A stretch of DNA of 49,732 nt, from the NCBI GenBank assembly GCA_029239975.1, contig JARBTX010000025.1, positions 1-49,732 of the forward strand, read 5' to 3'. A model generated the notes under the pieces. That model was not told where the DNA came from, made no database searches, and worked only from the letters and a program-made list of their open reading frames with translations. The DNA comes from Anaerocolumna sp. GTDB lineage: Bacteria > Bacillota > Clostridia > Lachnospirales > Lachnospiraceae. Positions 18,110 to 45,382 of the stretch are shown here, piece by piece. Numbering within the stretch: the stretch's first letter is position 1; every line of letters begins with the position of its first letter. Made by a program: the position numbers and the translations under genes.

Positions 18110-18277
18110 TTAGTAAACACTATTGTATTTTGTTTTATGAAGATATTTTTCTTTTGTGGCTAAGCCTCCTCTAATATGCCTTTCAGATTTATTCAGATCC
18201 AATACGACTCTGGCTCTGTTGGCTAGGGATGGATTAATCTGTACAAGACGTTCAGTGACATCTTTATGTACGGTTGT
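18110..18277 (-). pseudogene. spoIIID: SpoIIID, C-terminal half of a split gene
   Basis: The frame reads KTTVHKDVTERLVQINPSLA, then ...VLDLNKSERHIRGGLATKEK and ends ...NSVY before TAA. This is the second half of SpoIIID, the mother-cell DNA-binding regulator of sporulation, starting in the recognition helix. The N-terminal half and start codon are missing here; a TAA lies just upstream of the Lys-Thr-Thr codons. The missing half is at 45251-45382 on the same strand. The break is inside the direct repeat 18258-18274. No internal stop or frameshift is present, so joining the halves gives an intact 89-aa protein. I interpret this as a gene split by an intervening element, possibly rejoined during sporulation. 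Confidence 0.85.
18258..18274 (-). repeat. Direct repeat at the left end of the 27-kb interval (att-like)
   Basis: ACATCTTTATGTACGGT here matches ACATCTGTGTGTACGGT at 45261-45277 with two mismatches. The last 8 bases TGTACGGT (18267-18274) are identical. Each copy lies at the break in one spoIIID half. This fits the crossover sites of a serine recombinase. Confidence 0.7.
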
Positions 18278-18283
18278 CTTTTA

Positions 18284-19420
18284 TCAGAACGTTTTGTCAT
18301 TACATCTTAATCCAATATTTAATACTAATCCAACCGCTAACATAGAACTAACTAAAGACGTTACACCATAACTTATAAATGGTAAGGATAGCCCTGTATT
18401 AGGCAAAATGCTAGTTGCTACACCAACATTTATAAAAATCTGAAACATAAATAGTGCCGCTACACCGATGCAAATTAACTTCCCCATATTATCTGGTGCA
18501 CGAGTACCAATTATAATACTTCTTATAACTAAAGTAAGGTAGAAAATAAGTATTATACCAGTTCCTATAAATCCGAATTCTTCACCTACTACAGAAAAAA
18601 TAAAATCACTTTCATTTGCATATATACTTTTGTATAACCTATCAGAATTATCATCCGATATCATCTTTCCATGTAAACCACCGGATGCAATTGCTGTTAT
18701 TGCTTGATTTTGTTGATACTTACCAGTCATATCTTCGGATTCGTCTGTTGACATAAATGAAAGTATACGTTCTATTTGATACGTTTCAACAAATGGAAGC
18801 TTAAGATTAAACATTGTTACACTTATAATTAATGCAGCCACTGTTGGAATGGATACAGCTAAAACTATTCCGATTACCTTATAGCTAATTCCAGACGCAT
18901 ATACCATGATGCAAAAAATAAAAAATATAGCCATAGCAGAACTTAAATGTGGTTCTAATATTATTAAAACAGCTGGTAAAGCTGTCACCAGACACAAGAT
19001 AAAAAATACATAAAATTTATGCAATCTCTCCTTAAAATGATTACATAGAAATGCTAAAAATAGAATTATTACTACTTTGGTTAATTCAGAGGGTTGAAAT
19101 TGAATTCCTGCAATTATAATCCATCGTTTCACATTATTTAAAGAATTTCCAAACACGAGCAAATATGCTAAAATTAAAATAATACCTAAATACATTAACA
19201 AAGACATTTTACAAATAAAACGGTAATCAATAAATAACATGACAAAAATTAATCCAAAACCAATAGCAGCACCCATTAATTGCTTAGAAAATAACCCGGC
19301 TTTTGCATCATTTAAAATACCTACTTGCCGAATGCAATATAAACCACAACAGGTTAGTAGAATCATTACTATAAATATTATAACATCAAATTTTTTATAT
19401 TTAACTTTTAGTTCATTCAT
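18284..19420 (-). CDS. FtsW/RodA/SpoVE-family membrane protein
   Basis: A 378-aa SEDS-family peptidoglycan glycosyltransferase with about ten membrane helices. Typical segments are RWIIIAGIQFQPSELTKVVI, LEPHLSSAM, SDFIFSVVGEEFGFIGTGII and the C-terminal LPNTGLSLPFISYGVTSLVS. Length fits RodA/SpoVE. It is the gene nearest the left end of the proposed element; its stop is 10 bp from the att-like core. It stands alone, without a class B PBP neighbour. A spore cortex role (SpoVE-like) is an attractive guess only. Confidence 0.9.
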   Translation of the reverse strand: MNELKVKYKKFDVIIFIVMILLTCCGLYCIRQVGILNDAKAGLFSKQLMGAAIGFGLIFVMLFIDYRFICKMSLLMYLGIILILAYLLVFGNSLNNVKRWIIIAGIQFQPSELTKVVIILFLAFLCNHFKERLHKFYVFFILCLVTALPAVLIILEPHLSSAMAIFFIFCIMVYASGISYKVIGIVLAVSIPTVAALIISVTMFNLKLPFVETYQIERILSFMSTDESEDMTGKYQQNQAITAIASGGLHGKMISDDNSDRLYKSIYANESDFIFSVVGEEFGFIGTGIILIFYLTLVIRSIIIGTRAPDNMGKLICIGVAALFMFQIFINVGVATSILPNTGLSLPFISYGVTSLVSSMLAVGLVLNIGLRCNDKTF

Positions 19421-19636
19421 AAACTGAAGTTCCTTTCAAAATCTTTATATTAAGTTACCATAATATGTATTGTAAATAATTGTTTGACTTTTGTAAATAT
19501 AATCTAATAAAACAGTTATCTCTTCAGATAAGAGTATTACCATAAAATGCGCGTTATTAATACCATAAACTTATTCTGTTCTAAAAGTTTTAAGTTAGGA
19601 AAGAATAGATAAAAACAATGTATAGGAGTCATTTGC

Positions 19637-20044
19637 ATGAAATCCATTAAAGTAGTAGCAGCTATAATTTTTCTTAATAACCAAGTACTAGCAACAAAAC
19701 GTAGTTATGGAGATTACATTAACATGTGGGAGTTCCCAGGCGGTAAAATCGAAGCGAACGAAACAAAAGAAGACGCTCTAAAGCGTGAAATTAGAGAAGA
19801 GTTAGATGTAGCTATCTCCATTCATAAGCATATAACAACGATTGAATATGATTATCCGAACTTTCATCTTACTATGTATTGCTATTATTGCACTATATTA
19901 TCAGGAACAATTAAATTATCTGCACATAATGAAGCCAGATGGTTAGATTATAACAACTTAACTAGTGTAGAGTGGCTACCTGCAGATATAGATTTGATTC
20001 AATTTTTACAAAAGGAATTAGAAAATAAACAATTTCATTTATAA
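19637..20044 (+). CDS. MutT-type Nudix hydrolase, (8-oxo)-dGTP diphosphatase
   Basis: A 135-aa protein with a complete Nudix box, GGKIEANETKEDALKREIRE followed by ELDVAI, which binds Mg2+ and catalyses pyrophosphate hydrolysis. NMWEFPGGK upstream is typical of MutT, which removes oxidised dGTP. The ATG follows TAGGAGTCATTTGC. It is close to the restriction genes and on the same strand, 76 bp before the next gene. Confidence 0.88.
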   Translation: MKSIKVVAAIIFLNNQVLATKRSYGDYINMWEFPGGKIEANETKEDALKREIREELDVAISIHKHITTIEYDYPNFHLTMYCYYCTILSGTIKLSAHNEARWLDYNNLTSVEWLPADIDLIQFLQKELENKQFHL

Positions 20045-20120
20045 TATTTTATTTTTGAGTCATTTCGTGATAATATGTTATAAATAGATAGGTTATCAAC
20101 TTGGTAACATGGAGGATAAT

Positions 20121-20774
20121 ATGACAATTTTAGAGCTAGAACAAGCATCGATGAATCCTGGATTAGCATATGCGTTAGGATTAATCTACCCATTATATAA
20201 AGAAAAAGTTTTAAATGGCTGTGAATATATCCTAGGAAGTGTGAATCATAATTCTGGAAAAGTATCACAAAGCCAATTGGCAGATCATTATAAAGCAGTA
20301 TTTGAATTATTTGCAAAAAACAACTTAAGCACAGCTTTGACTTTAAAAACCAATAAATGTCCTGAATATACAATTACAGCAAAAGAAGGGTTTACTATTT
20401 TAATCGATAAAACGAATGTAGATAAAGAACAATGCCTAGATATATTAACGAAAAAAGTAAAAGATATAAGTATCTCTGATAAAACTATTAAAACTGAATT
20501 TGTAAAAGGATGTTTTGATGGTAGATCTTCCTTTGATACTACTTATCATTTTTTAGCATTAGATGTTGACAGAAATTACGAACGACAAGATTTAATCATT
20601 GAAATCACCCAAAGTTTACAGATTGAGTTAAATGTAAATCGTCGTGAAATAAATCATGCTAAAAATGATCAGATCCGTATAAAACCTACAAATATCCTAT
20701 ATTATATTACGAATATAGGCACGTACTCATCCTGCAGAAAGCAAATTATTGAAAAAGCTCTACACACATTATAG
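20121..20774 (+). CDS. LAGLIDADG-like protein linked to restriction genes
   Basis: A 217-aa protein. Two repeats recall LAGLIDADG folds: GLAYALGLIYPLYKEK near the N-terminus, and FVKGCFDGRSSFDT with a following fold and RIKPTNILYYITNIGTYSSC near the C-terminus. GGAGG lies 5 nt before the chosen ATG; an ATG four codons earlier would place the site inside the frame. It is 15 bp before the McrB-like gene and so probably part of the same restriction operon, like the three restriction genes of BsuMI. It could be the DNA-recognition subunit or a homing-type nuclease; activity is not proven. Confidence 0.6.
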   Translation: MTILELEQASMNPGLAYALGLIYPLYKEKVLNGCEYILGSVNHNSGKVSQSQLADHYKAVFELFAKNNLSTALTLKTNKCPEYTITAKEGFTILIDKTNVDKEQCLDILTKKVKDISISDKTIKTEFVKGCFDGRSSFDTTYHFLALDVDRNYERQDLIIEITQSLQIELNVNRREINHAKNDQIRIKPTNILYYITNIGTYSSCRKQIIEKALHTL

Positions 20775-20789
20775 CAAGGAGATTCCGTC

Positions 20790-21851
20790 ATGAATATTTC
20801 ATATGATAAAATAAACAAAACCTACATGTTAGATAATACTCCTTATACAAAGGAACAGTTTGTGGCATATATTAATAGTGATATGTTGCAAAGTGCATTG
20901 GCAACGCAAGCTGGTTCTATTGATATAAAGTCAGATGATATCAATTTTCTAACCGGCGGTAAAAATATAATTCTAATGGGCGCCCCTGGTACCGGAAAGA
21001 GCCATGATGCAGACCGGGATTATGGGCATAATTCCATTCGATGTGTGTTCCATAACGAATATACCAATAGTGATTTCGTTGGTACTTATAAACCAGTTCC
21101 AACCAAGGATGGTAGTAGTGTAACATATGAATTCAGACCAGGTCCTTTTACCCTTGCTCTTCTCAATGCCTATAACCAACCGAATGAAATGCACAATTTA
21201 ATAATAGAAGAAATCAATCGAGCAGATGCAAGTGCAGTCTTTGGTGAAATCTTTCAATTACTAGACCGCACAGGAGATGGAAACAGCGAATATACCATAC
21301 AGATTAGTAGGGAAATGCATGATTTCTTTGAATCTAAGTTAACAATCGAAGACGAAACATTAAAAGAATTAGTGCTGAATAAATCGAATATTCTCCTTCC
21401 AAGTAATTTAAATATGGTAGCAACTATGAATTCATCTGATCAAGGTGTTTTCACCCTAGATACTGCTTTTAAGAGACGTTGGATTTTTAAATTTAAAGAG
21501 ATTAACTTTACAGATGTATCACATAAAGATGAAGAATTAATTTACTGTGGACAAGCTATTACATGGGAACATTTTGCAGAAACCTTAAATAGATATATTG
21601 TTTTAAATGGTCTTCCAGAAGACAGGCAACTAGGTCCTTACTTTTTAAAAAAGGGTGAAGTATCCGATGTTGATACATTTTGTTCCAAACTCCTATACTA
21701 TTTATGGAATGATATTGCAAAATATAATAAAGACTTATACTTTGTTAATGCATATAAATTTTCTGAACTGGTAAGTAATTATAAAAATGGCCTGCCAATT
21801 TTAAATGACGCACTTCATAAATTGTTGATACCTGCGGAGAGCTCATTATGA
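20790..21851 (+). CDS. McrB-like AAA+ restriction subunit
   Basis: A 353-aa AAA+ NTPase. Walker A is GAPGTGKS (about 65-72), Walker B is LIIEEINRADASAVFGEIFQ, and sensor/arginine-finger motifs are ATMNSSDQGVFTLDTAFKRR. There is only a short N-terminal region before the AAA domain, so DNA recognition may lie in a partner, as in YdiS or LlaJI R1. It overlaps the McrC-like gene by 4 bp (ATGA), implying coupling. Confidence 0.88.
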   Translation: MNISYDKINKTYMLDNTPYTKEQFVAYINSDMLQSALATQAGSIDIKSDDINFLTGGKNIILMGAPGTGKSHDADRDYGHNSIRCVFHNEYTNSDFVGTYKPVPTKDGSSVTYEFRPGPFTLALLNAYNQPNEMHNLIIEEINRADASAVFGEIFQLLDRTGDGNSEYTIQISREMHDFFESKLTIEDETLKELVLNKSNILLPSNLNMVATMNSSDQGVFTLDTAFKRRWIFKFKEINFTDVSHKDEELIYCGQAITWEHFAETLNRYIVLNGLPEDRQLGPYFLKKGEVSDVDTFCSKLLYYLWNDIAKYNKDLYFVNAYKFSELVSNYKNGLPILNDALHKLLIPAESSL

Positions 21852-23131
21852 AACCATTGATACCTTTTATAGAAAACTACAGGTATGATTTCGCTATTCT
21901 TAATAAATATGGAATCGTATTAAATGACTTCCCTGATGAGAGTTATGAACAAAGCAGTACTTCATTTCGCTTTTGTGTTGTAGGATTATTCATTCACCGA
22001 GATTATCGTATTATGGTTTATCCAAAAAATTATAAAAAACCAAATGATATAAAAGATCAACACAAAGAAACTGCTAACTTAATAAAATCCATACAAAAAT
22101 ATAATCGAAAGTCAAAAAAATCAGACTTGATTTATCAATCCACCAATGGAAAGCTTAGCAAAAGAGAAAATTATATTGGTTCTATGATATTTATCATCGA
22201 GCATTACTTAAATCATGGATTGATTTATAGGGAACAAAAAGAGTTCAAAAAAAATTCCAATAAAAAAATTCATTGGAACAAAACAATGAGTAGTGTAGTA
22301 CCAGATGTATTCAATAGTACAACTGTTTATTTAGATACTTATTCTAACGTTAAGATGAAAGATTATGATAATGATATTACTAGATTGCATAAATTAGCGT
22401 TAATTGAAAGTCTCTATCAGCTTGGATTTCTATTTAATATGGATTACTCCCACTATGATTATGAATATTATGAATTAAATAATGATTTTACTAATCATAA
22501 AAATAAGTATGAGTACCAACTTCAAATGAAACTATCAAACACCTTTAATGATACCACATTAGAGTTATTAAATAATATAAAATCCATACTTTTTGAAACA
22601 AGCCTTTCAGAGACAAAACATAAGATTATTCCAATTATCACCTTTAATTTTGAATTAGTGTGGCAGGATGTTGTATCAGAATGCTTTAAAAATGAGGTAA
22701 AAAGATATCAAGAGTACTTCCCTTCCTTGGATATCATCTATAAAAGTGCAGAAGAACATAGACCACAGCTTCCTGATGTCGTTTATCAATCTGCACCAAA
22801 TTCCTGGTATATCTTAGATGCAAAATACTATGATGTTGATTTTAATCGCCCAAGTAAAGGCGATTATTTGAAACAATATTTTTATGAATTTAGTTTTAAA
22901 TATAATGGAGATAGCATCACCAATGCATTAATTTTTAACACCAATGGTGCTGACGTTGAATATCTAGGAAATGCACTGATAAAAGAAGCTACAAATCCTT
23001 TTCTAAAAGAAAAATCAATTCATATGATTGGTTTAAATCAAAGGGCTGCTTATGAGTATTATTCTAAAAACCAATCTACTAATTACTATCGTTCTCTCAT
23101 CACCGATGTGATTCATAAGAACAATAAATAA
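21848..23131 (+). CDS. McrC/LlaJI-type restriction endonuclease subunit
   Basis: A 427-aa nuclease subunit. The C-terminal third contains PDVVYQSAPNSWYILDAKYY, a PD-(D/E)XK active site (Asp...Asp-x-Lys). It works with the McrB-like NTPase that precedes it. The convergent methyltransferases protect host DNA. The Lys- and Asn-rich middle and low GC content suggest transfer. Confidence 0.85.
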   Translation: MKPLIPFIENYRYDFAILNKYGIVLNDFPDESYEQSSTSFRFCVVGLFIHRDYRIMVYPKNYKKPNDIKDQHKETANLIKSIQKYNRKSKKSDLIYQSTNGKLSKRENYIGSMIFIIEHYLNHGLIYREQKEFKKNSNKKIHWNKTMSSVVPDVFNSTTVYLDTYSNVKMKDYDNDITRLHKLALIESLYQLGFLFNMDYSHYDYEYYELNNDFTNHKNKYEYQLQMKLSNTFNDTTLELLNNIKSILFETSLSETKHKIIPIITFNFELVWQDVVSECFKNEVKRYQEYFPSLDIIYKSAEEHRPQLPDVVYQSAPNSWYILDAKYYDVDFNRPSKGDYLKQYFYEFSFKYNGDSITNALIFNTNGADVEYLGNALIKEATNPFLKEKSIHMIGLNQRAAYEYYSKNQSTNYYRSLITDVIHKNNK

Positions 23132-23180
23132 AAGTTTGTTAAGCAATAATTTTAAATAGTTGCTCAACAAACTTTTATTT
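23126..23180. terminator. Bidirectional terminator between restriction and methylase genes
   Basis: A 15-bp perfect stem (AAATAAAAGTTTGTT with AACAAACTTTTATTT) separates the convergent McrC-like and methyltransferase genes. T-runs exist on both strands. Confidence 0.88.
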
Positions 23181-23206
23181 TTATGCTACTGTAAAGAAGC
23201 AATATT

Positions 23207-23914
23207 TTATATGTTATTAAATCTATTTTGTGCAATCTCAAAATATTTGGTTTCATATTCTATCCCAATAAAAGCACGGTCGTTTTTAATAGCCGCAACT
23301 CCTGTACTTCCACTTCCCATAAATGGATCAAGTATGATTTCACCTGGATTAGTATGAATTTGAACTACTTTTTCCATTAACTTTAGGCTTTTTTGAGTAG
23401 GATGTCCTACTTTTTCTTTTCCACTAACTGTAGATGTCTGAAACATGGCTCTAAGATATGGTTCATCTTCTGGTTTATGAAATACCCATTTCGCATTTTT
23501 CTTCACTGCCCAAATCGCAAATTCCATGTCCTGAACATATCTTCTATTAATATTTCTTGGCATAGGATTCGACTTTTGCCATACTAGAACGTCTTTCACT
23601 TCCATGTTTTCATTCTCTAATCGTTCTATAATAAAACTGATAAAACGATAGGAACAAAAAATTATCATGGACCCATTCTTATCAAGTATTTGTACATACT
23701 TTCCAATCCAGGAATATAAATCAAATTTACCCCTATCCCAGTTACCAAAGTCAATACCAGCACGTGGATTTTTCATAGTAGTAAAATTATTATCTTGTGA
23801 AATATTATAAGGTGGATCTGTAATAATATGATTCACAGTTACCTTATCACGAATTAAATCGTCAATTAGAACATACGCATCCCCATTGTAAATCTTTAAT
23901 TTATCATTATTCAT
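23207..23914 (-). CDS. DNA methyltransferase, adenine-N6 or cytosine-N4
   Basis: A 235-aa methylase of the beta arrangement. The catalytic motif IV (TDPPYNIS) is near the N-terminus and the AdoMet motif I (DPFMGSGSTGVAA) near the C-terminus, with VGHPTQKSLKLMEKVV before it. The ATG at 23912-23914 overlaps the upstream cytosine methylase stop. DPPY does not separate N6-adenine from N4-cytosine with certainty. It probably modifies one strand or site of the restriction system. Confidence 0.88.
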   Translation of the reverse strand: MNNDKLKIYNGDAYVLIDDLIRDKVTVNHIITDPPYNISQDNNFTTMKNPRAGIDFGNWDRGKFDLYSWIGKYVQILDKNGSMIIFCSYRFISFIIERLENENMEVKDVLVWQKSNPMPRNINRRYVQDMEFAIWAVKKNAKWVFHKPEDEPYLRAMFQTSTVSGKEKVGHPTQKSLKLMEKVVQIHTNPGEIILDPFMGSGSTGVAAIKNDRAFIGIEYETKYFEIAQNRFNNI

Positions 23915-24983
23915 TCTCGTTACATTCCTTAATAATATTTTCACCAATTGCTTTTGCTAAAAGTGGGGGTACAGCATTACCAATTTGTTTACAGATGGAG
24001 CACTTATTTCCGTAAAAAACAAAGGAATCTGGAAAACTCTGAATTCTAGCAGCTTCTCTAGGTGTAATAGAGCGATTCAAAAAAGGATGTGAATTACGCC
24101 CGTTGGATGGAGTATCAAATCTTGTATCAATGGTTGGACTAGGTTTGTCCCATACTAATCTAGACCAGGTTGTCATAAATTTTTGATTACCATATAATTC
24201 AATAGGCATAGATGATTTATCACCTTCTGGTGGTATCAGCTTTAATTTATCTAAGGCTACTTTTGAATGATTGGTTGCAACATGATTATGCAATTGTTTA
24301 CTATTACCACGAAGCATTTTTTGATAGTTGGTATTAGGCTCATGAATATAATCTGAGATATTCTCACCTTCACCAGATTCTAAATATGCTAAATCGGAGA
24401 TTGCATCACGAACTGTTGCCTGTGTTTTTACAAATTCCTTTGGAAGTGGAATATCATGATCTAAGCATCCTATAATAATTGTTCTTTCTCTCGTTTGTGG
24501 CACCCCATAATTTACAGCATTTAAGATACCATACTTTACTTTGTAACCTAAAGCGGTAAACTTCTCATAAATCTGGTTAATGAAATATCCTTTTCCAGAT
24601 GAAATCATGTTCTTTACGTTTTCGATTACAAATACCTTAGGCATGATTTTACTTACGATTTCGTAATATTCTAAAAATAAATAATTTCTTGGGTCATCTA
24701 ATCCAAGGTTCTTACCTTTTAAACTAAAACCTTGGCAAGGTGGTCCGCCAACAATCATATTCACGTTATTCTTTATACTTTTATCTATAATTTCATTTTT
24801 TACTTCATCATCGCAGATATTACCGCACACGCAATCTGCATCAGGGAAGTTCTTTTTATATGTATGAATTGCATTCTTATCGAAATCTAACGCAACTTTT
24901 GTTTTAAATTCATCCAGAGAGTCAAGCCCACATGAGAAGCCACCTGCTCCACAAAACAAATCAAGAATTCTAAACTTTTCCAT
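23907..24983 (-). CDS. DNA (cytosine-5)-methyltransferase
   Basis: A 358-aa enzyme with the C5 motifs in order: LFCGAGGFSCGLD (I), GGPPCQGFS with the catalytic Cys (IV), FVIENVKNM (VI), QTRERTIIIG (VIII), the target region with SRLVWDKPSPTID, and GNAVPPLLAKAIG (X). It overlaps the next methylase gene by 8 bp. It protects the host against the convergent McrBC-like module. Confidence 0.95.
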   Translation of the reverse strand: MEKFRILDLFCGAGGFSCGLDSLDEFKTKVALDFDKNAIHTYKKNFPDADCVCGNICDDEVKNEIIDKSIKNNVNMIVGGPPCQGFSLKGKNLGLDDPRNYLFLEYYEIVSKIMPKVFVIENVKNMISSGKGYFINQIYEKFTALGYKVKYGILNAVNYGVPQTRERTIIIGCLDHDIPLPKEFVKTQATVRDAISDLAYLESGEGENISDYIHEPNTNYQKMLRGNSKQLHNHVATNHSKVALDKLKLIPPEGDKSSMPIELYGNQKFMTTWSRLVWDKPSPTIDTRFDTPSNGRNSHPFLNRSITPREAARIQSFPDSFVFYGNKCSICKQIGNAVPPLLAKAIGENIIKECNENE

Positions 24984-25003: not shown

Positions 25004-25186
25004 TTATACGATTGCACTTTTACCGCTTTTTACCCACTCATCTAATTCTGAAAATTTAAATTTCCACTGTCTTCCTATCTTATGAGCTGGAATGCTATTC
25101 TTTTTAATCCAGTTGCGTATCGTATCCTTGTTAACGCCTAGGTATTCTGCAGTTTCTTCCAAACTACACCATTTTTCGTTCAACAT
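25004..25186 (-). CDS. Excisionase-family helix-turn-helix protein
   Basis: A 60-aa MerR-like HTH protein (WCSLEETAEYLGVNKDTIRN followed by WIKKNSIPAHKIGRQWKF). AGGAGG lies 9 nt before the chosen ATG; the open frame continues upstream without a better signal. It heads the methylase pair, so it may be a controller of the R-M genes. The same fold serves as recombination directionality factor in many mobile elements, so a role in excision of the 27-kb interval is also possible. Confidence 0.8.
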   Translation of the reverse strand: MLNEKWCSLEETAEYLGVNKDTIRNWIKKNSIPAHKIGRQWKFKFSELDEWVKSGKSAIV

Positions 25187-25565
25187 TTGGCTTTTCCTCC
25201 TATGACTTGCTCCATTTATTATAGTATAAATAACTATAATTTTCAAGAATTATTATAGAATAATTACAATTATATAGGTTTTATATGGAATAAATATGAT
25301 TAATTAAATTTAGTTATGATTAATTCGTATTTTATATGTTAATATAGAAATAAATTAAAATTAATATTTATTAATATGATTATATATGAATTAATATGAA
25401 TAATATTTTTTATTGTCCAATGTATGGAGATTTAAGTTGGAGATGGAAAGGTATAATTCATTGAAACATATGATGGAAATAAAATGACATCTGATGAATT
25501 TTTAACTATTTAGTAGATAATTGCAGTATGCAGTAAATAATAAACCACCATCACAAAGATCTTTT
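25187..25565. other. AT-rich gene-free stretch
   Basis: Extremely AT-rich with many TTAATATGATTA-like short repeats. Short reading frames between 25420 and 25530 are broken by stops and look decayed. No promoter for the HTH-methylase unit was clear. Confidence 0.5.
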
Positions 25566-34700: not shown

Positions 34701-36212
34701 TCATTTTAAATTTAAATTTTTGTTAGAGAATTTCTTTATGTATATATCTACCTTTTTATCTTTTTCTATAGTAATATCATCAATGACTCTTTTCATAAAT
34801 TGATTCGTTATAAAATCAGGTGTTAATAATACATCTAGGTTATTCCAAGCATCATATAATTTAAATTCTATCTCATCATAACATAATGTATTTTCATCCA
34901 TTAACTTTAATTCTTCTTCTACTATGCAAATATCCTTACTTAAATCCTGGGATATTTGCTTTAATTCTTCCATGGTAATAATGTCATTGTTGTACATATC
35001 CATATATTTTTCTTTCGATTTTTTTAATTTAAACATCTTTTGAGTCAGTTCTTTTCGTAGTTGTTCTTGATTATCTTTTCGTTTATAATGTTTCAGCAAT
35101 TCATGCAAAAAATTCTTAGCTAACCCTGGCTTTTTACTTAAAACCATTTGAATATAATCTAGAATTGCGTTGAGAAGTTCTTCTTCTGATGCAGCTGTAT
35201 TATTAGAACAACTATCTACACCGTTACTATTTCGCCTTGCACAAACCCATGTAATATACGTATTTTTATAGGTTCTTACCATACGTCGAAACGTGGAGTT
35301 ACAATGTGCACAATGAATTAATTTGCTAAAAATATAATCGTCTGTTTCTCTTTCTTTTTTATCTACAAAAGAGTTCTTTCTTTTTTGTAGTAATTGTTGT
35401 GCATCATAAAAGATAGCATCACGAATGATAACAAGCTCTGGCTTATATGTAACAATCCAACCTTCTTCCCCTACTAGACGCCTTTCTCCAGTAAGAAAAT
35501 CAGACACTTCTTCTTTCCCATTTATTACTTTACCAATATAAATCGGATTCGATAGTGTCCTAACTACTGCATTTTGACTCCAACTACAATTTCTTTTTGT
35601 TTTCATTCCTTCTTCATTTAAGATTTTTGCAATTCGGTTTGTTCCATATTTTAGTACCACATACATATGAAAAATCCTTTGTACAATCTCTGCTTCTTTT
35701 TCATTGATATATAAATGAAATAAATCACCATTTACTTTATCATAGCCAAATACGAAGTTTGGAACTTTTCCCTTGCTGGCATTTATTTTCTTACCAAATT
35801 TAACACGTTTGGATGTATTTGCACTTTCTTCTTGTGCAATGGCACTAAGCATCGTTAGCATGAATTCCGAGCTATCCGATGATGTCTGATCGTAATTTAC
35901 AAATACGACTTTAGTTCCAAGATTTTTTAATTTTCGAATACTTGTTAGAAAGTCTACGGTATTACGTGCAAGACGAGATACATCTTTAATTAAAACTAAA
36001 TCAAATTCCTTCTCATTGGCATCACTAAGTAATTTTAATAATTGCGTTCTGTTCTTAATTTTTGTACCTGATTTTCCTTCATCTGCATAAATTCGAATTA
36101 ACTCGTAATTATTTCTTTTTGCATACTCCCCGAAAAAAGCTTGCTGGCTTTCTAAGCTATCTAGTTGTTCTTCTTTTTTTGTTGATACTCTGCAATAGGC
36201 TACCGCTTTAAT
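34701..36212 (-). CDS. Large serine recombinase, SpoIVCA-like
   Basis: About 503 aa, close to the 500 aa of B. subtilis SpoIVCA, the enzyme that excises the skin element from sigK. The resolvase domain (1-150) has AYCRVST with the catalytic Ser and IKDVSRLARNTVDFLTSIRK. A recombinase domain follows (FGYDKVNGD..., GTNRIAKILNEEGMKTKRN), then a zinc-ribbon with CAHCNSTF and CSNN, and a C-terminal coiled coil (about 385-450). The frame has no ATG, GTG or TTG before residue 120. I place the start at ATT (36210-36212), 7 nt after GGAAGG; the frame stays open a further 19 codons. It follows a 54-aa ORF and a sigma-E-like promoter. It is the only recombinase in the 27-kb interval that splits spoIIID. 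Confidence 0.85.
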   Translation of the reverse strand: MKAVAYCRVSTKKEEQLDSLESQQAFFGEYAKRNNYELIRIYADEGKSGTKIKNRTQLLKLLSDANEKEFDLVLIKDVSRLARNTVDFLTSIRKLKNLGTKVVFVNYDQTSSDSSEFMLTMLSAIAQEESANTSKRVKFGKKINASKGKVPNFVFGYDKVNGDLFHLYINEKEAEIVQRIFHMYVVLKYGTNRIAKILNEEGMKTKRNCSWSQNAVVRTLSNPIYIGKVINGKEEVSDFLTGERRLVGEEGWIVTYKPELVIIRDAIFYDAQQLLQKRKNSFVDKKERETDDYIFSKLIHCAHCNSTFRRMVRTYKNTYITWVCARRNSNGVDSCSNNTAASEEELLNAILDYIQMVLSKKPGLAKNFLHELLKHYKRKDNQEQLRKELTQKMFKLKKSKEKYMDMYNNDIITMEELKQISQDLSKDICIVEEELKLMDENTLCYDEIEFKLYDAWNNLDVLLTPDFITNQFMKRVIDDITIEKDKKVDIYIKKFSNKNLNLK

Positions 36213-36235: not shown

Positions 36236-36400
36236 TTATTTCTCTTGTAATTTTTGAATAAAGTCAGAGACCGTTATCTTTTTTCTAATAATTTGATCGA
36301 TTAGATCATCTACTAATATCTTTGTAATATACGTTGCGGTAGTATCCGTATCATTAGGGTCATGTATTATTACATGCAAGTTGTTTCTTCTTTTATACAT
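36236..36400 (-). CDS. Small protein upstream of the recombinase
   Basis: A 54-codon ORF, MYKRRNNLHVIIHDPNDTDT then ...YITKILVDDLIDQIIRKKIT...LQEK. It has a basic N-terminus and a helical C-terminus. AAGGAATTAT lies before the ATG. It ends 23 bp before the recombinase start proposed here, and the ribosome binding site of the recombinase overlaps its tandem TAA stops. It is probably cotranscribed and could be a directionality factor. I do not recognise the family. Confidence 0.6.
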   Translation of the reverse strand: MYKRRNNLHVIIHDPNDTDTTATYITKILVDDLIDQIIRKKITVSDFIQKLQEK

Positions 36401-36421: not shown

Positions 36422-36466
36422 TTTGTACATCTTATGATGCTTGTTCCATAAATATACATGTACAAA
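36422..36466 (-). promoter_or_regulatory. Sigma-E-like promoter flanked by an inverted repeat, before the recombinase operon
   Basis: On the minus strand GTATATT (36451-36457) matches the sigma-E -35 consensus KMATATT at 6 of 7 positions. After exactly 14 bp comes CATAAGAT (36429-36436), matching CATACAHT at 6 of 8. Perfect 9-bp inverted repeats TTTGTACAT/ATGTACAAA (36422-36430, 36458-36466) flank the pair and could be an operator. Sigma-E is the mother-cell factor that drives spoIVCA in B. subtilis. Confidence 0.5.
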
Positions 36467-36623: not shown

Positions 36624-37259
36624 TTATAGTTCCTTTTTATTAAAAATTGAGACCGAGATAAAGTAGGATACAGCGAAAACTAGTAATACAATAAACGGAA
36701 ATGCATATCCGAGCATTTTTATTTGATCTTCACTTGGTTTTGGAATGTTGAATCTTTGAATTAATTTTAAAACTCCCAAAATAATTAATGTAGGAATACC
36801 AAAAACTACAAACATCATGATTCTTGCTTTCTCGACTCCAACTTTAAATATGACTGGTATAAGTAAACTGAATGCAGCAATAGCTATTAAAATAATTAAT
36901 CCACAAGCGATTAGTATTTCTTTTATATTTCCCATATCTAAAAATGTAATCATTAAAAGAGAGACAATTAATGAAACCCCTGCTCCCATTAAAGTTGTAA
37001 TAATTAGCAACAAATATTTTGATAATACGATGTCTTTTTTTAGAATTGGCATTGTTAAGGCATATTTATCCCATTTTGCTTGTTCATCATACCCCATGGA
37101 TGTAATTACCATCATAGATGACATCATAACCATCATACCAATGATGTATGGTGGATTCTTCATATTAATTCCGAATATTATGAATAAAATCATAGCAATA
37201 CCAATTTGTTTTACGTATTTTTTTAAATTTAAGATATCTTTTAATAATAATCCTACCAT
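36624..37259 (-). CDS. ABC-2-type transporter permease
   Basis: A 211-aa membrane protein with about six helices (MVGLLLKDILNLKKYVKQIG...; SSMMVITSMGYDEQAKWDKY). It pairs with the ATPase encoded just before it. GAGGTG lies 6 nt before the chosen ATG, which comes directly after the ATPase stop. With the GntR regulator it resembles the B. subtilis Ytr-type or BcrA-like exporters acting in envelope stress or antibiotic resistance. Confidence 0.85.
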   Translation of the reverse strand: MVGLLLKDILNLKKYVKQIGIAMILFIIFGINMKNPPYIIGMMVMMSSMMVITSMGYDEQAKWDKYALTMPILKKDIVLSKYLLLIITTLMGAGVSLIVSLLMITFLDMGNIKEILIACGLIILIAIAAFSLLIPVIFKVGVEKARIMMFVVFGIPTLIILGVLKLIQRFNIPKPSEDQIKMLGYAFPFIVLLVFAVSYFISVSIFNKKEL

Positions 37260-37260
37260 A

Positions 37261-38115
37261 CTATTCACCTCTTACTTTAAATAAAATAATTTCTTCAATT
37301 GATGTATTATCAATTACTAAACTCCTAAATTGCTTTTCTAATTCCTTTTTATTATTTACCATCACTTCATACCCAAACTGACCTTTTCTTGTACCTACAA
37401 TATATCTTTTATCAATTTTTTCATAATCATCTTTTTTACAGCGTACAACACCATAATGATAGATTAAATCATCTTTACTTTCGCTTAGAATAATTTTTCC
37501 ATTATGAATAAATGTAACGTAATCTGCCACCTTTTCAAGATCACTTATGATATGTGAGGATAGAAGAATTGTATGATCCTCGTCTTGAATGAATTCTAAG
37601 AATATATCAAGAATTTCGTCTCTAACGATAGGGTCTAATCCACTGGTTGCTTCATCAAGGATAAGTAATTTTGCATTATGGGATAGCGCAACCGCTATTG
37701 ATAATTTCATCTTCATACCCCTAGAATACTCTTTTACAATTTTATCCGGTGGTAATTTAAATTTCTCTACGGTATGTTTAAATATTGTTTCATTCCAATT
37801 AGTATAAATTTTGCTCATAATAAAGGAGATATCTTTTATCGTCAAGTTATCATGAAAATAACTTTCATCAAACACGACTCCTACTAACTCTTTTATTTTT
37901 CTTTCATCTTTTTTATTGTCTAATCCAAATACTTTGATTGAGCCACTATTGGTGTGTATCAGATTGAGGATAGACTTAATTGTTGTAGTCTTTCCGGCTC
38001 CATTTTCACCTACAAAACCCATGATGCTTCCTTTGGGAACTGCAAATGAAACATTATCCAAATAAAAATTGTTATATTGCTTTGTAATACCTTTTAATTC
38101 TATTGCATAATCCAT
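37261..38115 (-). CDS. ABC transporter ATP-binding protein
   Basis: A 284-aa BcrA/YtrB-type ATPase. Walker A is GENGAGKTTT, the signature is EYSRGMKMKLSIAVAL (SRGMK replacing LSGGQ, as in this subfamily), Walker B is LLILDEATSGLD and the H-loop is LLSSHIISDLEKVA. It is 2 bp from the GntR stop and adjacent to the permease. Confidence 0.93.
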   Translation of the reverse strand: MDYAIELKGITKQYNNFYLDNVSFAVPKGSIMGFVGENGAGKTTTIKSILNLIHTNSGSIKVFGLDNKKDERKIKELVGVVFDESYFHDNLTIKDISFIMSKIYTNWNETIFKHTVEKFKLPPDKIVKEYSRGMKMKLSIAVALSHNAKLLILDEATSGLDPIVRDEILDIFLEFIQDEDHTILLSSHIISDLEKVADYVTFIHNGKIILSESKDDLIYHYGVVRCKKDDYEKIDKRYIVGTRKGQFGYEVMVNNKKELEKQFRSLVIDNTSIEEIILFKVRGE

Positions 38116-38117
38116 TT

Positions 38118-38492
38118 CTAATCCTCCTTATAGATCATATCAAGAATTTCATGCAGTTCATCTGGTTTTATACCACTTGCTTTGGCATTGTCTACCGCTA
38201 TCTGCAGATGTTCTTCAATAACACGATATTGTTCTTCCTTCATTATTTCTGTATTACTTTCAGAAACAAAGCTACCTTTACCCACTAAAGTGGTTATAAA
38301 TCCATCTCTTTCTAAGTCTTCATAAGCTCTTTTGGTGGTAATCACACTGATTCTTAATTCTTTTGCTAATAATCGCATAGAAGGTAATGAATCACCTGGT
38401 CTTAAATCTCCACTCATTATCATATTTTTAATCTGCATTGTGATTTGTTCGTAAATTGGTTTACCACTAGAGTTACTTATTATTATTTCCAC
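38118..38492 (-). CDS. GntR-family (YtrA-type) transcriptional regulator
   Basis: A 124-aa short GntR protein: a winged helix (GKPIYEQITMQIKNMIMSGD, LRPGDSLPSMRLLAKELRIS, TTKRAYEDLERDGFI) and a short helical tail. I chose GTG at 38492 because GAGGTG lies upstream. It controls the downstream ABC genes and itself. A 9-bp perfect inverted repeat overlapping the -10 box is the likely operator. Confidence 0.92.
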   Translation of the reverse strand: MEIIISNSSGKPIYEQITMQIKNMIMSGDLRPGDSLPSMRLLAKELRISVITTKRAYEDLERDGFITTLVGKGSFVSESNTEIMKEEQYRVIEEHLQIAVDNAKASGIKPDELHEILDMIYKED

Positions 38493-38522
38493 AAATACAC
38501 CTCGTTTTCTCATGTGTTATTA

Positions 38523-38752: not shown

Positions 38753-40123
38753 ATGTCATCTAAAAATCAAAACATTGGGTACTTGCCCGATGAACGCCCA
38801 CCATTTTTCGAACTAATACTTTTTGCATTGCAGCAAATTGTTGTTATGTTCCCAGCAACGGTATTAGTTGCATTAATTACAGGATTTCACGTATCTACTA
38901 CTATCTTTGCCAGTGGATTGGCAACTCTTTCATTTATTCTTGTTACGGGAAGAAAAATTCCTTTGTATTATGGTTCTAGTTTTTCTTATATCGCTGCTAT
39001 TGCTTCTATAATGAGCGCAGATGCATTTTCTAGTTATAGTCTTAATGATAAAATCTCTATTGCACAATTTGGTATCGTAATGTCTGGTTTTGTTTCTATT
39101 ATTGCCGGAATAATCATTAAACGTACTGGAAAAGCAACTATCGATAAAGTCCTCCCCCCTACTGTTACAGGAAGTATTGCTATTATTATTGGTTTATCAT
39201 TAGCTAGCAACGCTATGACGAATGCTGCAGCACATCCAGATGTAGCTAATACAGCTTTAGCAAGCAATATGGCTTGGATTATTGCATTAGTAACATTATT
39301 CTCAACAATTCTATATTCTGTATACTTAAAAGGTAAGCTAAGTCAGCTGCCTATTCTTTTTGGCCTTTTTACAGGTTATATCACTGCTTTAATAATCGGA
39401 TCAATTACAGATATCCCTTTTGTTATATTCAATACAATCGAATCTACAAAACCATTTAATCTTCCAATTTTCACATTGCCTAAGCCATCCTTAGCTGCAA
39501 TTGCTGCAATTATGCCAATTGCTATTGCAACGATCCCTGAATCAACTGCTCATGTATATCAGTTACACATCTATGTAAATGATTTAGCAAAGAAAAAGGG
39601 AAGTAAACCATATGCAATTGATGATAAACTTGGTCTTAATTTAATTGGTGATGGTATTGGTGATATCGTATCTGGTTTTATCGGTGGCCCAGCTGGTACA
39701 AACTATGGCGAAAACATTAGTGCTATGGCATTAAGTAAAATTTTCTCTGTACCAGTTTTAATAGCTGCATCCCTTATTACAATGGTAATATCTTGTTTCA
39801 CACCATTAATTAACGTAGTATATTCTATACCAACAGCAGTAATCGGTGGTTTATCCATTTACCTATTTGGTATCATCGCAGCACAAGGTATTACAATCAT
39901 GATGGAAAAACGAGTGGACATGTTTAAATCTAAAAACTTAGCAGTTATCGCTGTTATCTTAATCGTTGGTTTAGGTGGAAGCTTTGGCTTTGAAGGTGGT
40001 ATGATTCCAATGTTTGGTATACAGTTCCCTGCAATTGCATCTGCTGCAGTTGTTGGTATCGTATTAAACTTATTACTATCCATTGGTGAAAAATCAGAAG
40101 ATACAGCAATTGATAATAATTAA
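38753..40123 (+). CDS. NCS2-family uracil/xanthine permease
   Basis: A 456-aa membrane transporter with about 14 helices. FALQQIVVMFPATVLVALIT is the UraA-type N-terminus, ATIPESTAHVYQL the conserved substrate-site helix, and FIGGPAGTNYGENISAMALS the NCS2 signature. It imports a pyrimidine or purine base with protons. AGGAGG precedes the ATG. Uracil is more likely than xanthine by the N-terminus. No riboswitch was seen upstream. Confidence 0.88.
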   Translation: MSSKNQNIGYLPDERPPFFELILFALQQIVVMFPATVLVALITGFHVSTTIFASGLATLSFILVTGRKIPLYYGSSFSYIAAIASIMSADAFSSYSLNDKISIAQFGIVMSGFVSIIAGIIIKRTGKATIDKVLPPTVTGSIAIIIGLSLASNAMTNAAAHPDVANTALASNMAWIIALVTLFSTILYSVYLKGKLSQLPILFGLFTGYITALIIGSITDIPFVIFNTIESTKPFNLPIFTLPKPSLAAIAAIMPIAIATIPESTAHVYQLHIYVNDLAKKKGSKPYAIDDKLGLNLIGDGIGDIVSGFIGGPAGTNYGENISAMALSKIFSVPVLIAASLITMVISCFTPLINVVYSIPTAVIGGLSIYLFGIIAAQGITIMMEKRVDMFKSKNLAVIAVILIVGLGGSFGFEGGMIPMFGIQFPAIASAAVVGIVLNLLLSIGEKSEDTAIDNN

Positions 40124-40176
40124 AATAAAACGTGGACTTACTATAAATACTTAGTAAGAGTTATCCCGATGATAAC

Positions 40177-40234: not shown

Positions 40235-40245
40235 CAGTTTTTGAT

Positions 40246-41244: not shown

Positions 41245-41271
41245 ACATTTCTCTCCAATTTATTATTCTGC

Positions 41272-41445: not shown

Positions 41446-41447
41446 TA

Positions 41448-41978: not shown

Positions 41979-42011
41979 CTTGACACTCCTTTCATATATA
42001 AACTTACTTTA

Positions 42012-42159: not shown

Positions 42160-42318
42160 TAATAAACTTACTTAGTTGATTGAAAATGTTAGTTTATCCA
42201 TTTATCGTTTTTGTTACCCAATTACCTTGATTGGCTACGTATTAATTTATAAATTATTAATCTTCTATTAATTTAGTTATATATACTAATATAAACATAT
42301 TTTCTTAATTTTTCAATT

Positions 42319-42366
42319 AAAAAAGCTCTTACCTATGATAATAAAATCAGTTAGGTAAGAGCTATT
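42319..42366 (-). terminator. Terminator of the purine permease gene
   Basis: AGCTCTTACCTA pairs with TAGGTAAGAGCT, and a T-run follows on the minus strand, 28 bp after the stop. Confidence 0.88.
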
Positions 42367-42393
42367 ATTATTCTGTTATTATTAATATTTTAA

Positions 42394-43812
42394 TTAGATG
42401 ATTGCTAAAATAACAAAGTTTGCAATGAATAATGCGGTTGCAACCCAAAGAATTGGATGAACTTCTTTTGCTTTTCCTCTACAAATTTTAATGATACAGT
42501 AGAAAATAAATCCAGCTGCAATACCATAAGAAATACTATAGCAGAATGCCATAAAGATTGCTGCAAAGAAAGCAGGAATTGCTTCATCAAGATCAGTCCA
42601 GTTTACTTCTTTAAAGGATGCTAACATCATAATACCTACTGCGATTAAAGCTGGAGCAGTTGCTTGAGCTGGTACAATACTTACAAAAGGTTGTAAGAAA
42701 ATACTTGCTGCAAATAATAAAGCTGTAACCACTGCTGTTAAACCTGTACGTCCACCTGCACCGATACCTGCTGCACTTTCAACGTATGTAGTAGTATTGG
42801 ATGTACCAAAGATAGCACCAATTGAAGTTGCGATTGAATCTGCAAATAATGCTTTATCCATTTTAGATTTAAATCCAGTACCTTCTTGAAGTGCTTTTTC
42901 ATCAGCAGCATCAAAAATACCTGTTCTTTTACCAGTTCCAATAAATGTTCCAAGTGTATCAAATGTATCAGATAAACTAAATGCAAATACTGTCATAAGT
43001 ACTAATGGTATCTTAGATACATCTGTGAATAAAGATAATAAACCTTCTTTACCTAACGCAACACCAAAAACTTGTCCTAACTCTTCAAATGAAGTTGATA
43101 AACCGGAAGTTGTACTAAGTGTAGATAAATCAACTAAATCCATAGGAATAGCTACAATGGTAGTTAATACAATTCCGATAAAAATAGCACCTTTTACTTT
43201 TAATATTAAAAGTAAGAATAAAATAAAGATACCAATTAAAGCTAAAATAACACTACGATTATTAAATTCAACAAGAGCAGGAACTGCACTACTACTTGCT
43301 ACAATCGTTCCACTATCTAAAGCTAAATATGTTCCTGGGTCTGAAGTAAAACTTAAAAGACCTGCATTTTTAATTCCTATATATGCGATGAAGATACCAA
43401 TACCACCACCAATAGCACTTTGAAGACTATTTGGGATTGCTTTGATAATAAGTTTACGAATCTTTGTAACTGTAATAATAATATTAATGATACCACATAA
43501 GAAAACCATACCAAGAGCTTGTTTCCATGAGAAACCAAGTCCAAATACTACGGTAAAAGTAAAGAATGCATTTAATCCCATACCAGGAGCTTGTGCATAT
43601 GGTACATTTGCAAAAAGACCCATTACTAAAGTTCCTACGATAGAAGCAATGATTGTTGCCAAGAATACTGCACCACTTGGCATACCAGTTTGTTGAAGCA
43701 TTTGTGGATTTACGAAAATAATATAAGCCATTGCAAAGAATGTTGTGAATCCGGCAAGGACTTCCGTAGAAACATTGGTTCCATGCTCTTTAAGTTTGAA
43801 AAATTTGTCCAT
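42394..43812 (-). CDS. AzgA-type guanine/hypoxanthine permease (NCS2)
   Basis: A 472-aa transporter with about 12-14 helices. EVLAGFTTFFAMAYIIFVNP is the AzgA/PbuG N-terminus, PGMGLNAFFTFTVV and LFADSIATSIGAIFGTSNTT the conserved segments. It imports purine bases with protons. GGAGAGAAATT precedes the ATG. The 360-bp upstream region has no convincing purine riboswitch. Confidence 0.92.
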   Translation of the reverse strand: MDKFFKLKEHGTNVSTEVLAGFTTFFAMAYIIFVNPQMLQQTGMPSGAVFLATIIASIVGTLVMGLFANVPYAQAPGMGLNAFFTFTVVFGLGFSWKQALGMVFLCGIINIIITVTKIRKLIIKAIPNSLQSAIGGGIGIFIAYIGIKNAGLLSFTSDPGTYLALDSGTIVASSSAVPALVEFNNRSVILALIGIFILFLLLILKVKGAIFIGIVLTTIVAIPMDLVDLSTLSTTSGLSTSFEELGQVFGVALGKEGLLSLFTDVSKIPLVLMTVFAFSLSDTFDTLGTFIGTGKRTGIFDAADEKALQEGTGFKSKMDKALFADSIATSIGAIFGTSNTTTYVESAAGIGAGGRTGLTAVVTALLFAASIFLQPFVSIVPAQATAPALIAVGIMMLASFKEVNWTDLDEAIPAFFAAIFMAFCYSISYGIAAGFIFYCIIKICRGKAKEVHPILWVATALFIANFVILAII

Positions 43813-44172
43813 AATTTCTCTCCTTTGTTTGTTTTCAGTTTGAAATTGAAATAAACCCCTCTATTTCTTATTAACTAACCAGACTTATTATATATGATTT
43901 TATTATTAATTTAAATAACATTTTTCATTCTATTAATTAGTTTTAATAATAAATAAACGATAAAATACTAATAAATAATCACATATTTTGGTAAATTACA
44001 ATTTTCCCAATTATTACTACCAATAAATTTACCTTTTCTAGTAGAAACTTATAATTAATTGCGTATTATGAGACTAGTATATATTCCCACCACCAGTTTG
44101 TTGTGATATAATCATGTATTATATATTTCAGAATTACTTAAGGTAATATATAGGATAGAAAGGAAGAACAAT
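43813..44172. other. Divergent regulatory region between the purine permease and CorA
   Basis: AT-rich DNA without a gene. A TATAAT-like -10 for the permease lies near 43893-43898 on the minus strand and one for corA at 44106-44111 on the plus strand, both with weak -35 boxes. GGTAAATT/AATTTACC near 43990 and 44030 could form a long hairpin. A GTTTCTACTAG stretch recalls purine riboswitches but other required parts are absent. Confidence 0.5.
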
Positions 44173-45108
44173 ATGTTTTTTCAAATAAAAGAACCATTAA
44201 CTGAAATAAAAACAAATGCAGTAAACTTGGATATTTTAACTCTAGGAATTGTAACGTTAGATGAACTTGAACAAAGTTATAAAACGTTTGGTTTCTCTCC
44301 AGCTACAGTGGAAGAATGTAAGCATTGTTCTAAACATATTCATGGTGCTATTGATGTATATGAAGATTATCATTTTGGTGTTATTTCCGGACTTGATACA
44401 AAATACTTAATGAAGATGCAAGATCGTTTCGGAATTTATATTAAACATAACCTTTTTCTTATTGTTATAATTGAAGATCAAGATGATAGCATAAGGAATA
44501 AATTACTTGAAACCGTACATCACATAAATCTAACTAAAGTCACACTCGAAAAATTAATATATGGATTTCTAGAACGGCTTATTAATCAAGATTTCATCAT
44601 ATTAGAAAAACTAGAATCAAAGATTAGTGAACACGAGGATAAAATAAATGCTAACAAACTAGATAAAGATATTAATTTTGTTATATCTGGACTGAGAAAA
44701 AGATTATTATTATTAAACAACTATTATGAACAATTAATTCAGATTGGCGAAGAATTAGAAGAAAATGGCTTAGACTTGTTTGCTGAAGATCAACTCCGTT
44801 ATTTTGCTTTATTTTCAAACAGAGTTTCTAGATTGAGTAACAATGCGCGAATGCTACAAGATTATTGTGTTCATGTACGGGATGCATACCATTCCCAAAT
44901 GGATTATAATCTAAACAATATCATGAAATTATTCACTGTGGTTACGTCAATATTTTTACCGCTTACATTAATTGTTGGATGGTATGGTATGAATTTTACA
45001 ACTATGCCTGAACTAACATGGAAATATGGATACCTTTTTGTAATTATAATATCAATTGCAGTAGCTGTTTCTTTTATTATTTATTTTAAGAAAAAAAAGT
45101 TTCTATAG
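44173..45108 (+). CDS. CorA-family divalent cation transporter
   Basis: A 311-aa protein: a cytoplasmic alpha/beta and helical domain, then two C-terminal membrane helices with the YGMNF signature (VGWYGMNFTTMPELTWKYGY) between them. It forms pentameric Mg2+/Co2+ channels. GAAAGGAAGAACAAT precedes the ATG. No M-box leader is visible. It is the last complete gene at the right end of the proposed 27-kb element. Confidence 0.93.
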   Translation: MFFQIKEPLTEIKTNAVNLDILTLGIVTLDELEQSYKTFGFSPATVEECKHCSKHIHGAIDVYEDYHFGVISGLDTKYLMKMQDRFGIYIKHNLFLIVIIEDQDDSIRNKLLETVHHINLTKVTLEKLIYGFLERLINQDFIILEKLESKISEHEDKINANKLDKDINFVISGLRKRLLLLNNYYEQLIQIGEELEENGLDLFAEDQLRYFALFSNRVSRLSNNARMLQDYCVHVRDAYHSQMDYNLNNIMKLFTVVTSIFLPLTLIVGWYGMNFTTMPELTWKYGYLFVIIISIAVAVSFIIYFKKKKFL

Positions 45109-45152
45109 ATAATTTATCTTTATATCAAATTTTACGTCTTAACAAAAAACAT

Positions 45153-45205
45153 ACCACGCTTTGTAAAAATGATGATGTCATCTTACATAGCGTGGTTATT
45201 TTATC
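45153..45205 (+). terminator. Terminator after corA
   Basis: ACCACGCT pairs with AGCGTGGT; inner TGTAA/TTACA and ATGATG/TGTCAT pairing continues the stem, and a T-rich run follows. Confidence 0.8.
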
Positions 45206-45250
45206 TTTTCTTAAAGCAATTTTTCTTCTTTCATTTATCCAAAAACCTTT

Positions 45251-45382
45251 CTAATAAGCTACATCTGTGTGTACGGTAGATTTCGAAATACCAAATTGTT
45301 TTGCTGTTTGTCTAACAGTCGCATTATTGTCAATAATGAAGTTTGCGATTTCTACTGCCCGTTCTTCTATATAGCCTTTCAA
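45251..45382 (-). pseudogene. spoIIID: SpoIIID, N-terminal half of a split gene
   Basis: The frame starts with TTG (45380-45382), 8 nt after AGGGGG, and reads MKGYIEERAVEIANFIIDNN then ATVRQTAKQFGISKSTVHTD, V, A, Y and TAG. This is SpoIIID up to the recognition helix, after which the sequence leaves the family. The C-terminal half lies at 18110-18277. A crossover at the shared 8-bp core changes VHTDVAY-stop to VHKDVTERL and restores the full 89-aa regulator in frame. A sigma-E-like promoter lies upstream, as expected for spoIIID. No decay is seen in either half, which favours regulated excision over simple inactivation, but this is inference. Confidence 0.85.
45261..45277 (-). repeat. Direct repeat at the right end of the 27-kb interval (att-like)
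   Basis: ACATCTGTGTGTACGGT, partner of 18258-18274 with two mismatches. The exact core TGTACGGT is at 45270-45277. The cores are 27,003 bp apart in direct orientation, which is what excision by a site-specific recombinase needs. Confidence 0.7.

Follow-up and report, generated by a model that had tools for sequence, protein, structure and literature searches.

A spoIIID gene split by a predicted recombinase-encoding intervening element in Anaerocolumna and other Clostridia

When the 49,732-nucleotide stretch of Anaerocolumna sp. analyzed here (contig JARBTX010000025.1 of assembly GCA_029239975.1; called the window) was read, the sporulation gene spoIIID was found in two halves separated by a long interval. 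It is very likely that this interval is a spoIIID-intervening element, predicted to be excised in the mother cell by its own large serine recombinase with the rejoining of an 89-codon spoIIID. An initial annotation, made from the letters of the window, had interpreted the interval in this way, and that interpretation is supported by the conservation of the split, by the recombinase inside the element, by empty and filled sites in relatives and by the contig ends of one genome (G011). The split itself was part of that account; the recombinase, a small partner protein, an intact paralog of the gene and the wide distribution were not.

Both halves are on the minus strand. The N-half (45251–45382) begins with a TTG start, and its 43-codon frame passes the crossover core and ends at a TAG; it matches positions 1–41 of the SpoIIID family PF12116. 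The C-half (18110–18277) comprises 55 codons, stop included, and matches positions 27–81 of the same family. Its first ATG, GTG or TTG appears only from codon 25 of 55 onward. The break lies in the codons of the recognition helix of the helix-turn-helix (HTH) motif, between STVH and KD. An 8-bp core, TGTACGGT, is present at 18267 and 45270 of the window with a spacing of 27,003 bp, and joining the halves at this core gives 89 codons plus a stop, in frame. The attL core (45270–45277) and the attR core (18267–18274) are both ACCGTACA on the minus strand and share the crossover; at attL, the dyad centre of the arms is the CA of TACA. The element between the halves spans 18278–45269. The coordinates, strand and order of the halves, a 17-bp direct repeat with two mismatches around the core, the spacing and the 89-codon product had all been given in the initial annotation and were correct on re-reading. 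Inverted-repeat arms with the common core, identified by eye, are clear in three genus mates (G005, G007, G008) and weak in the window; in several genus mates, the arms on the element sides combine into an attP-like site.

The annotation had also assigned expression signals to the two halves, and these could be located. The N-half has the ribosome-binding site GGGGGAT and a sigma-E-type −10 element, GCATACAAT (45414–45422, minus strand), which is identical in all 14 Anaerocolumna N-half loci, window included. The sigma-E −10 consensus is printed as KCATANANTN in PMC3416734. A hairpin of the terminator type was seen by eye 3′ of the C-half.

Of the 14 genus mates among the 60 relatives searched, 12 have both spoIIID halves together with the intact paralog. 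In G003, the N-half and the paralog were accompanied by no more than a weak C piece, and G001 (63% complete) has none of these. In the window and 10 mates, six of which are single-contig assemblies, both halves are on one contig, 4,846 to 27,003 bp apart. The joined gene has 89 codons in frame in all 12 genus genomes in which it was joined, window included. The parts that are present follow one order: thioesterase, spoIIID2 (the paralog), N-half, permease and transporter cargo, recombinase, C-half. RnfC is found 3′ of the C-half in the fetched stretch of three mates (G002, G008, G013) and at a greater distance in the window; the shorter stretches retrieved 3′ of the C-half in the other mates did not show it.

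The halves have not decayed in these relatives; such decay had been named in the initial annotation as a sign against an element. Over 66 pairs from 12 genomes, the ratio of nonsynonymous to synonymous differences (pN/pS) is 0.015 for the N-half (codons 1–38) and 0.061 for the C-half (codons 39–80). The mean synonymous differences are 11.9 and 19.0, respectively, against 0.6 and 3.6 amino-acid differences. By these sequence comparisons, both halves are under strong selection at the protein level. The protein conservation of the whole C-half is not explained by constraint on the att site, which, to judge from the arms, would extend over roughly its first 25 bp. The 27 intact copies that could be read, from 29 loci, all contain the motif KSTVHKD; in 8 of 14 Anaerocolumna N-halves its K is replaced by T until the halves are joined.

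The large serine recombinase (34701–36212, minus strand) is complete, with 503 amino acids (aa). It consists of a resolvase catalytic domain with its serine, Ser10 by alignment, a Recombinase domain (PF07508) and a zinc ribbon (PF13408), and its solved-structure relatives by profile include SPbeta YokA fusions. Most of its relatives have ATG, GTG or TTG at the aligned start. None of these is available in the window, where the probable start is an ATT at 36212 preceded by a ribosome-binding-like AAGGA. A near-full-length match, 49–57% identical, is found in all 14 genus mates. There is no internal stop in the recombinases of the window and the seven mates read as protein, and the match in G003 has one TAA. 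The recombinase distances correlate with those of the thioesterase (Mantel rho 0.65, 13 genomes, 1 of 2000 permutations as high), which speaks for inheritance along with the host.

In G011, the contig carrying the N-half (C5) ends in TACATAAAG, and the contig carrying the C-half (C60) begins with TACATAAAG on the reverse strand. A third contig of 7,042 bp (C53) begins and ends with TACATAAAG, and it carries the recombinase, CorA and both permease matches. The two flanks and the two ends of the element share precisely these nine bases. Nine common bases would not break a contig if the integrated form were present alone. A de Bruijn assembly is interrupted at this point when the reads contain attL, attR, attB and attP together, and this would be why G011 breaks at the core. 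The contig ends therefore suggest, by this assembly logic, the pattern expected when integrated and excised forms coexist. Mixed strains would be a milder explanation, although by themselves they would not account for breaks at the element's own ends.

The split is not confined to Anaerocolumna. A SpoIIID match was obtained in 247 of 397 genomes of the family, and in 28 of those outside the genus the best E-value was between 1e-15 and 1e-24. We rechecked these 28 and two genomes of other families: 20 have separate halves, five the N-half only and four the C-half only, and in the remaining one (G152) spoIIID is broken at contig ends. None of the 20 genomes with both halves gave a full-length SpoIIID, only partial matches. 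A related recombinase (42–52% identity) lies beside the C-half in all 12 genomes with both halves on one contig. The gene is in frame with VHKD or IHKD restored at all 11 loci that were joined; one locus (G143) was left unjoined, and three (G325, G429, G210) were read from a point within the gene, 3′ of the true start. Other recombinases (23–26% identity) are found near the C-half in G169, G113 and G208, and the spoIIID site may have been taken more than once. At the loci L103, L105 and L113, where the split spoIIID is near serine recombinases of another lineage (23–26% identity), the C-half match starts a few residues later. In an order-wide sample, 218 of 295 genomes have a SpoIIID match, some with E-values in the range of partial matches.

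Filled and empty sites were compared in five pairs of congeneric species with split and intact spoIIID, a comparison the initial annotation had proposed. The flanks are the same on both sides in two of the five pairs and on the C-half side in a third; in the remaining two, the gene alone aligned or just one side was available.

At least 577 relatives of the recombinase were confirmed with a query alignment of 19 recombinases (A1), in which three sequence ends were shortened by one codon. Several genus mates were left out of it, as were L081, L044 and L039, whose coordinates contained stop codons. Among the best 80 of the 577 loci in named genomes, the recombinase is followed by a spoIIID C-half on its own strand in 75, and in 13 of those the locus includes the N-half as well; two have the N-half only and three neither, and an intact spoIIID was found beside none of the 80 recombinases. 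The proportion of 75 in 80 describes the near clade, as the query recombinases came from beside split spoIIID. No pair of the 80 reaches 95% identity in recombinase DNA, and four loci (L130, L132, L142, L161) had already been counted. The titles include Blautia, Schaedlerella, Sporofaciens, Flavonifractor, Pseudoflavonifractor, Ruminiclostridium and Anaerobacterium. The isolates Blautia sp. An81, Blautia glucerasea, Schaedlerella arabinosiphila and Sporofaciens musculi have the C-half beside the recombinase. One record, MT838016.1 (L119, labelled Bacteriophage sp.), was considered as an excised circle and rejected, the recombinase standing beside a spoIIID C-half as at an integrated end; the record looks like a piece of bacterial chromosome. 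IMG/VR contigs (L116) encode a 41%-identical recombinase with a CCGTTCC...GGAACGG inverted repeat behind it at 6500–6620, and they possibly represent a phage using the same kind of site.

Upstream of the recombinase gene, the window encodes a 54-aa protein (36236–36400, minus strand) whose frame ends 23 nt before it. Frames of about 45–130 aa upstream of the recombinases have in common the motif F-H-N-P-N...T-A-x-Y (the HNPN family here). With a profile built from 17 frames, an HNPN gene was found in 67 of the 80 named loci (accepted to E 0.05, with six of 96 matches weaker than 0.001). It is on the strand of the recombinase in 65 of these 67, and it lies within 300 nt in 31, one of them on the opposite strand. 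A database search gave 4,187 relatives of the family. Among the 120 listed, none carries a Pfam domain, and the names given are only hypothetical or uncharacterised. No convincing sequence relative was found in the PDB (best E 0.64), and PHROGs gave no family for the window's copy. The AlphaFold model of the 54-aa protein has an extended N-terminus and one long helix, with a predicted local distance difference test (pLDDT) of 79.6 and a predicted template modelling score (pTM) of 0.42. We regard the protein as a candidate recombination directionality factor.

The window's pair of HNPN and recombinase genes is preceded by a sigma-E-like promoter (36429–36456, minus strand; −35 TATATTT at 36450–36456 and −10 TCATAAGAT at 36429–36437). 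Such promoters were found upstream of 40 of 92 HNPN genes, against a mean of 2.7 and a maximum of 8 in 300 Markov sets, and of 32 of 74 once alike upstream sequences were grouped. The pattern was shaped after viewing the sequences. The stricter −10 consensus was not, and it is present in 18 of 92 loci against 4.9 expected (maximum 10). A GGACAA box stands at the start of 18 of the 40 promoters (shuffle mean 0.9, maximum 4); it was noticed first and counted afterwards. Scored against WWVRACARNY, which we take to be the SpoIIID binding consensus, 28 of the 40 reach 9 or more (shuffle mean 13.6, maximum 24). Recombinases without a near HNPN gene have the sigma-E-like pattern in only two of 41 cases, and a sigma-A-like promoter in 18 of 41 (mean 2.8, maximum 7). 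The att-arm-like motif GTAACAGAAC was counted upstream of 20 of these 41, a raw count without shuffle control. The motif falls in the recombinase promoter region at L140, L144, L157 and 17 other loci, where it is possibly an operator for self-repression.

The intact divergent paralog, spoIIID2 (47042–47344, minus strand; PF12116, E 5.7e-36), lies outside the element, about 1.7 kb upstream of the N-half, with a likely start at the ATG at 47293. It is present in 13 of 14 genus mates, and it contains a third copy of the core at 47184. A sigma-E-type −10, GCATATATT (47324–47332, minus strand), with a GGACAA motif directly upstream, is found in all 14 Anaerocolumna loci, and we read the region as a putative sigma-E promoter open to repression by SpoIIID. 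We also considered sigK as a second split gene in this genome and rejected it, as positions 24–226 of 227 are matched within a single 212-aa open frame.

The cargo of the element is housekeeping-like, as the initial annotation had remarked, and for the genus this holds in that a xanthine/uracil-type permease is inside the element in all 13 mates whose N-half-side cargo was read. The window has two such permeases (38753–40123, plus strand; 42394–43812, minus strand). A CorA gene (44173–45108, plus strand) is found in most, not all, genus mates, and a GntR regulator with an ABC-2 transporter (36624–38513, minus strand) in several. RibD has a counterpart in a single mate (G010), and so has an amino-acid ABC transporter (G002). 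No counterpart was present in the genus loci searched for the NUDIX, FtsW-family and HEAT protein genes or for the LlaJI-type restriction-modification set (20790–24983), which is made up of a McrB-like AAA protein, a LlaJI restriction endonuclease and N4/N6 and C5 methylases. The stop codon of the FtsW/RodA/SpoVE-family gene (18284–19420, minus strand) adjoins the attR core. The smallest element read (G092, 3,527 bp) contains the recombinase, the small HNPN gene and a xanthine/uracil-type permease. The cargo in other genera includes genes for defence, plasmid mobility and transposases, as seen among the 25 most frequent families of 77 in Pfam and of 117 in PADLOC for 70 proteins from 11 elements.

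The annotation had called the interval skin-like. The comparison stands for the function; Pfam recognised no phage structural gene among the scanned cargo proteins of the window. When eight window proteins were compared with PHROGs, one small HTH protein gave weak terminase-small-subunit matches (E 8e-6), and its excisionase match was better. An HTH_17 protein (25004–25246, minus strand) matches phage excisionase families, and it is a candidate for a rival directionality factor or a restriction controller; the cargo around it did not turn up in the genus mates that were searched.

We propose that the recombinase encoded in the interval 18274–45270 would excise it in the mother cell during sporulation, and that the two halves would be rejoined. 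The HNPN protein would act as the directionality factor, and its sigma-E-like promoter would restrict excision to the mother cell, the role that CD1234 has for the skin element of Clostridioides difficile. The N-half's own sigma-E-type promoter would then transcribe the rejoined gene. In Anaerocolumna, spoIIID2 with its sigma-E-type promoter may act before or beside it. The forespore would keep the element, which would be inherited although the mother cell discards it. More tentatively, and with confidence a little short of even, we suggest that spoIIID has become a split gene, rejoined during development, in many Clostridia (Lachnospiraceae, Oscillospiraceae and others) through a dedicated pair of recombinase and HNPN protein. 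Such a switch would limit itself: sigma-E would drive the HNPN factor, the factor would drive excision, and the SpoIIID so produced would shut the HNPN promoter through the GGACAA box. In Anaerocolumna, spoIIID2 would supply SpoIIID early on, before the rejoined gene takes over.

Several observations weigh against excision as proposed. The window recombinase offers only ATT as a start, and the attP symmetry is weaker in the window than in G005, G007 or G008. The directionality factor is proposed from position, size and promoter; the HNPN gene is absent in 13 of 80 loci and is more than 300 nt off or on the other strand in 37 of 67, and 52 of 92 HNPN genes are without the sigma-E-like pattern, itself fitted to sequences already seen. 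Neither an excised junction nor a circle was met as a sequence, the contig-end pattern comes from a single genome (G011), and no contig ends at the core were seen in the other fragmented genomes with the split in which ends were read. Finally, spoIIID2 could supply SpoIIID function, so that excision need not be essential in Anaerocolumna.

This last point is shared by an ordinary integrative element, a genomic island for which spoIIID is merely the attachment site, with rare or no excision and with spoIIID2 doing the sporulation work. All 13 genus mates with any spoIIID match have the intact paralog, the elements of other genera carry defence, plasmid-mobility and transposase cargo, and split and intact species occur inside one genus, all of which would suit an island. 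We nevertheless consider it unlikely, as the C-half is conserved (pN/pS 0.061) yet lacks a usual start codon up to its 25th codon, 20 of the 30 rechecked genomes outside the genus have both halves and no full-length SpoIIID, and a sigma-E-like promoter precedes many HNPN genes. It is also conceivable that an old insertion broke spoIIID, that the halves persist by chance and that the paralog, with its own conserved sigma-E-type promoter, replaced the gene. Such a relic is very improbable with synonymous differences so far above amino-acid differences in both halves, a near-full-length recombinase match in every genus mate and no internal stop in the window and seven mates. The window is a single contig (C174 of genome G000) in a fragmented genome of 180 contigs with 6.54% contamination, and an assembly or binning artefact joining unrelated contigs, which the initial annotation had raised, would be the least favoured explanation. 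Such an error is exceedingly unlikely, as 10 genus mates have the same arrangement within one contig and the assemblies of six of these consist of a single contig. Excision of a spoIIID-intervening element is the explanation we prefer.

Elements of this kind are known. The skin element of C. difficile, in sigK, is alike in that a mother-cell regulator is split by an element with its own large serine recombinase and a small partner protein (PMC5025042). There, CD1231 is constitutive and CD1234 is under sigma-E and SpoIIID; here, too, sigma-E-type control would fall on the partner and not on the recombinase, which in other genera has a sigma-A-like promoter in 18 of 41 cases. The target differs, and SpoIIID, which controls CD1234, would here be the product of rejoining unless spoIIID2 serves. 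No database relatives of CD1234 were found in that work, in contrast to the thousands of the HNPN family. The gin element of Bacillus cereus ATCC10987 (28.6 kb; PMC5595907) also splits a small regulator gene, gerE, at a short direct repeat (9 bp in gin), has no phage genes and carries restriction-modification cargo, and its excision needs the recombinase GirC and a second factor, GirX. In contrast, gerE is a late gene, gin has three recombinase genes where the spoIIID element has one, and gin is from some Bacillus strains whereas the spoIIID element is from many Clostridia.

In the skin element of Bacillus subtilis (sigK; SpoIVCA and Skr; PMC6957869), a small partner gene likewise adjoins the recombinase gene; skr and the 5′ end of spoIVCA overlap, whereas the 54-aa frame ends short of the recombinase. 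That element differs in its target, sigK, and in being a defective prophage; spoIVCA is a SpoIIID target (PMC517825). The elements vfbin (spoVFB), vrin (spoVR), SPbeta (spsM) and yin (yabG) also split sporulation genes and are excised (PMC4191935, PMC10747680), but they have other target genes and are prophages or prophage-like. The split genes named in 2023 are sigK, spsM, spoVFB, gerE and yabG (PMC10747680), and spoVR was named in 2014 (PMC4191935). We found no report of a split spoIIID in the open-access literature, most subscription papers and preprints being outside the search, and the split gene in Clostridia is likely undescribed so far. What appears to be new is not the kind of element but its target, its wide distribution and the recombinase lineage that the HNPN protein accompanies.

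SpoIIID has its place between sigma-E and sigma-K, and gating it by excision would therefore be an irreversible step early in the mother-cell programme. The att sites, recombinases and HNPN partners form a large set of candidate site-specific recombination systems. Annotation pipelines may score genomes with the split as lacking spoIIID, and spore formers may thus be called non-sporulating. The distribution suggests that such a rearrangement is common in gut Clostridia, named isolates included.

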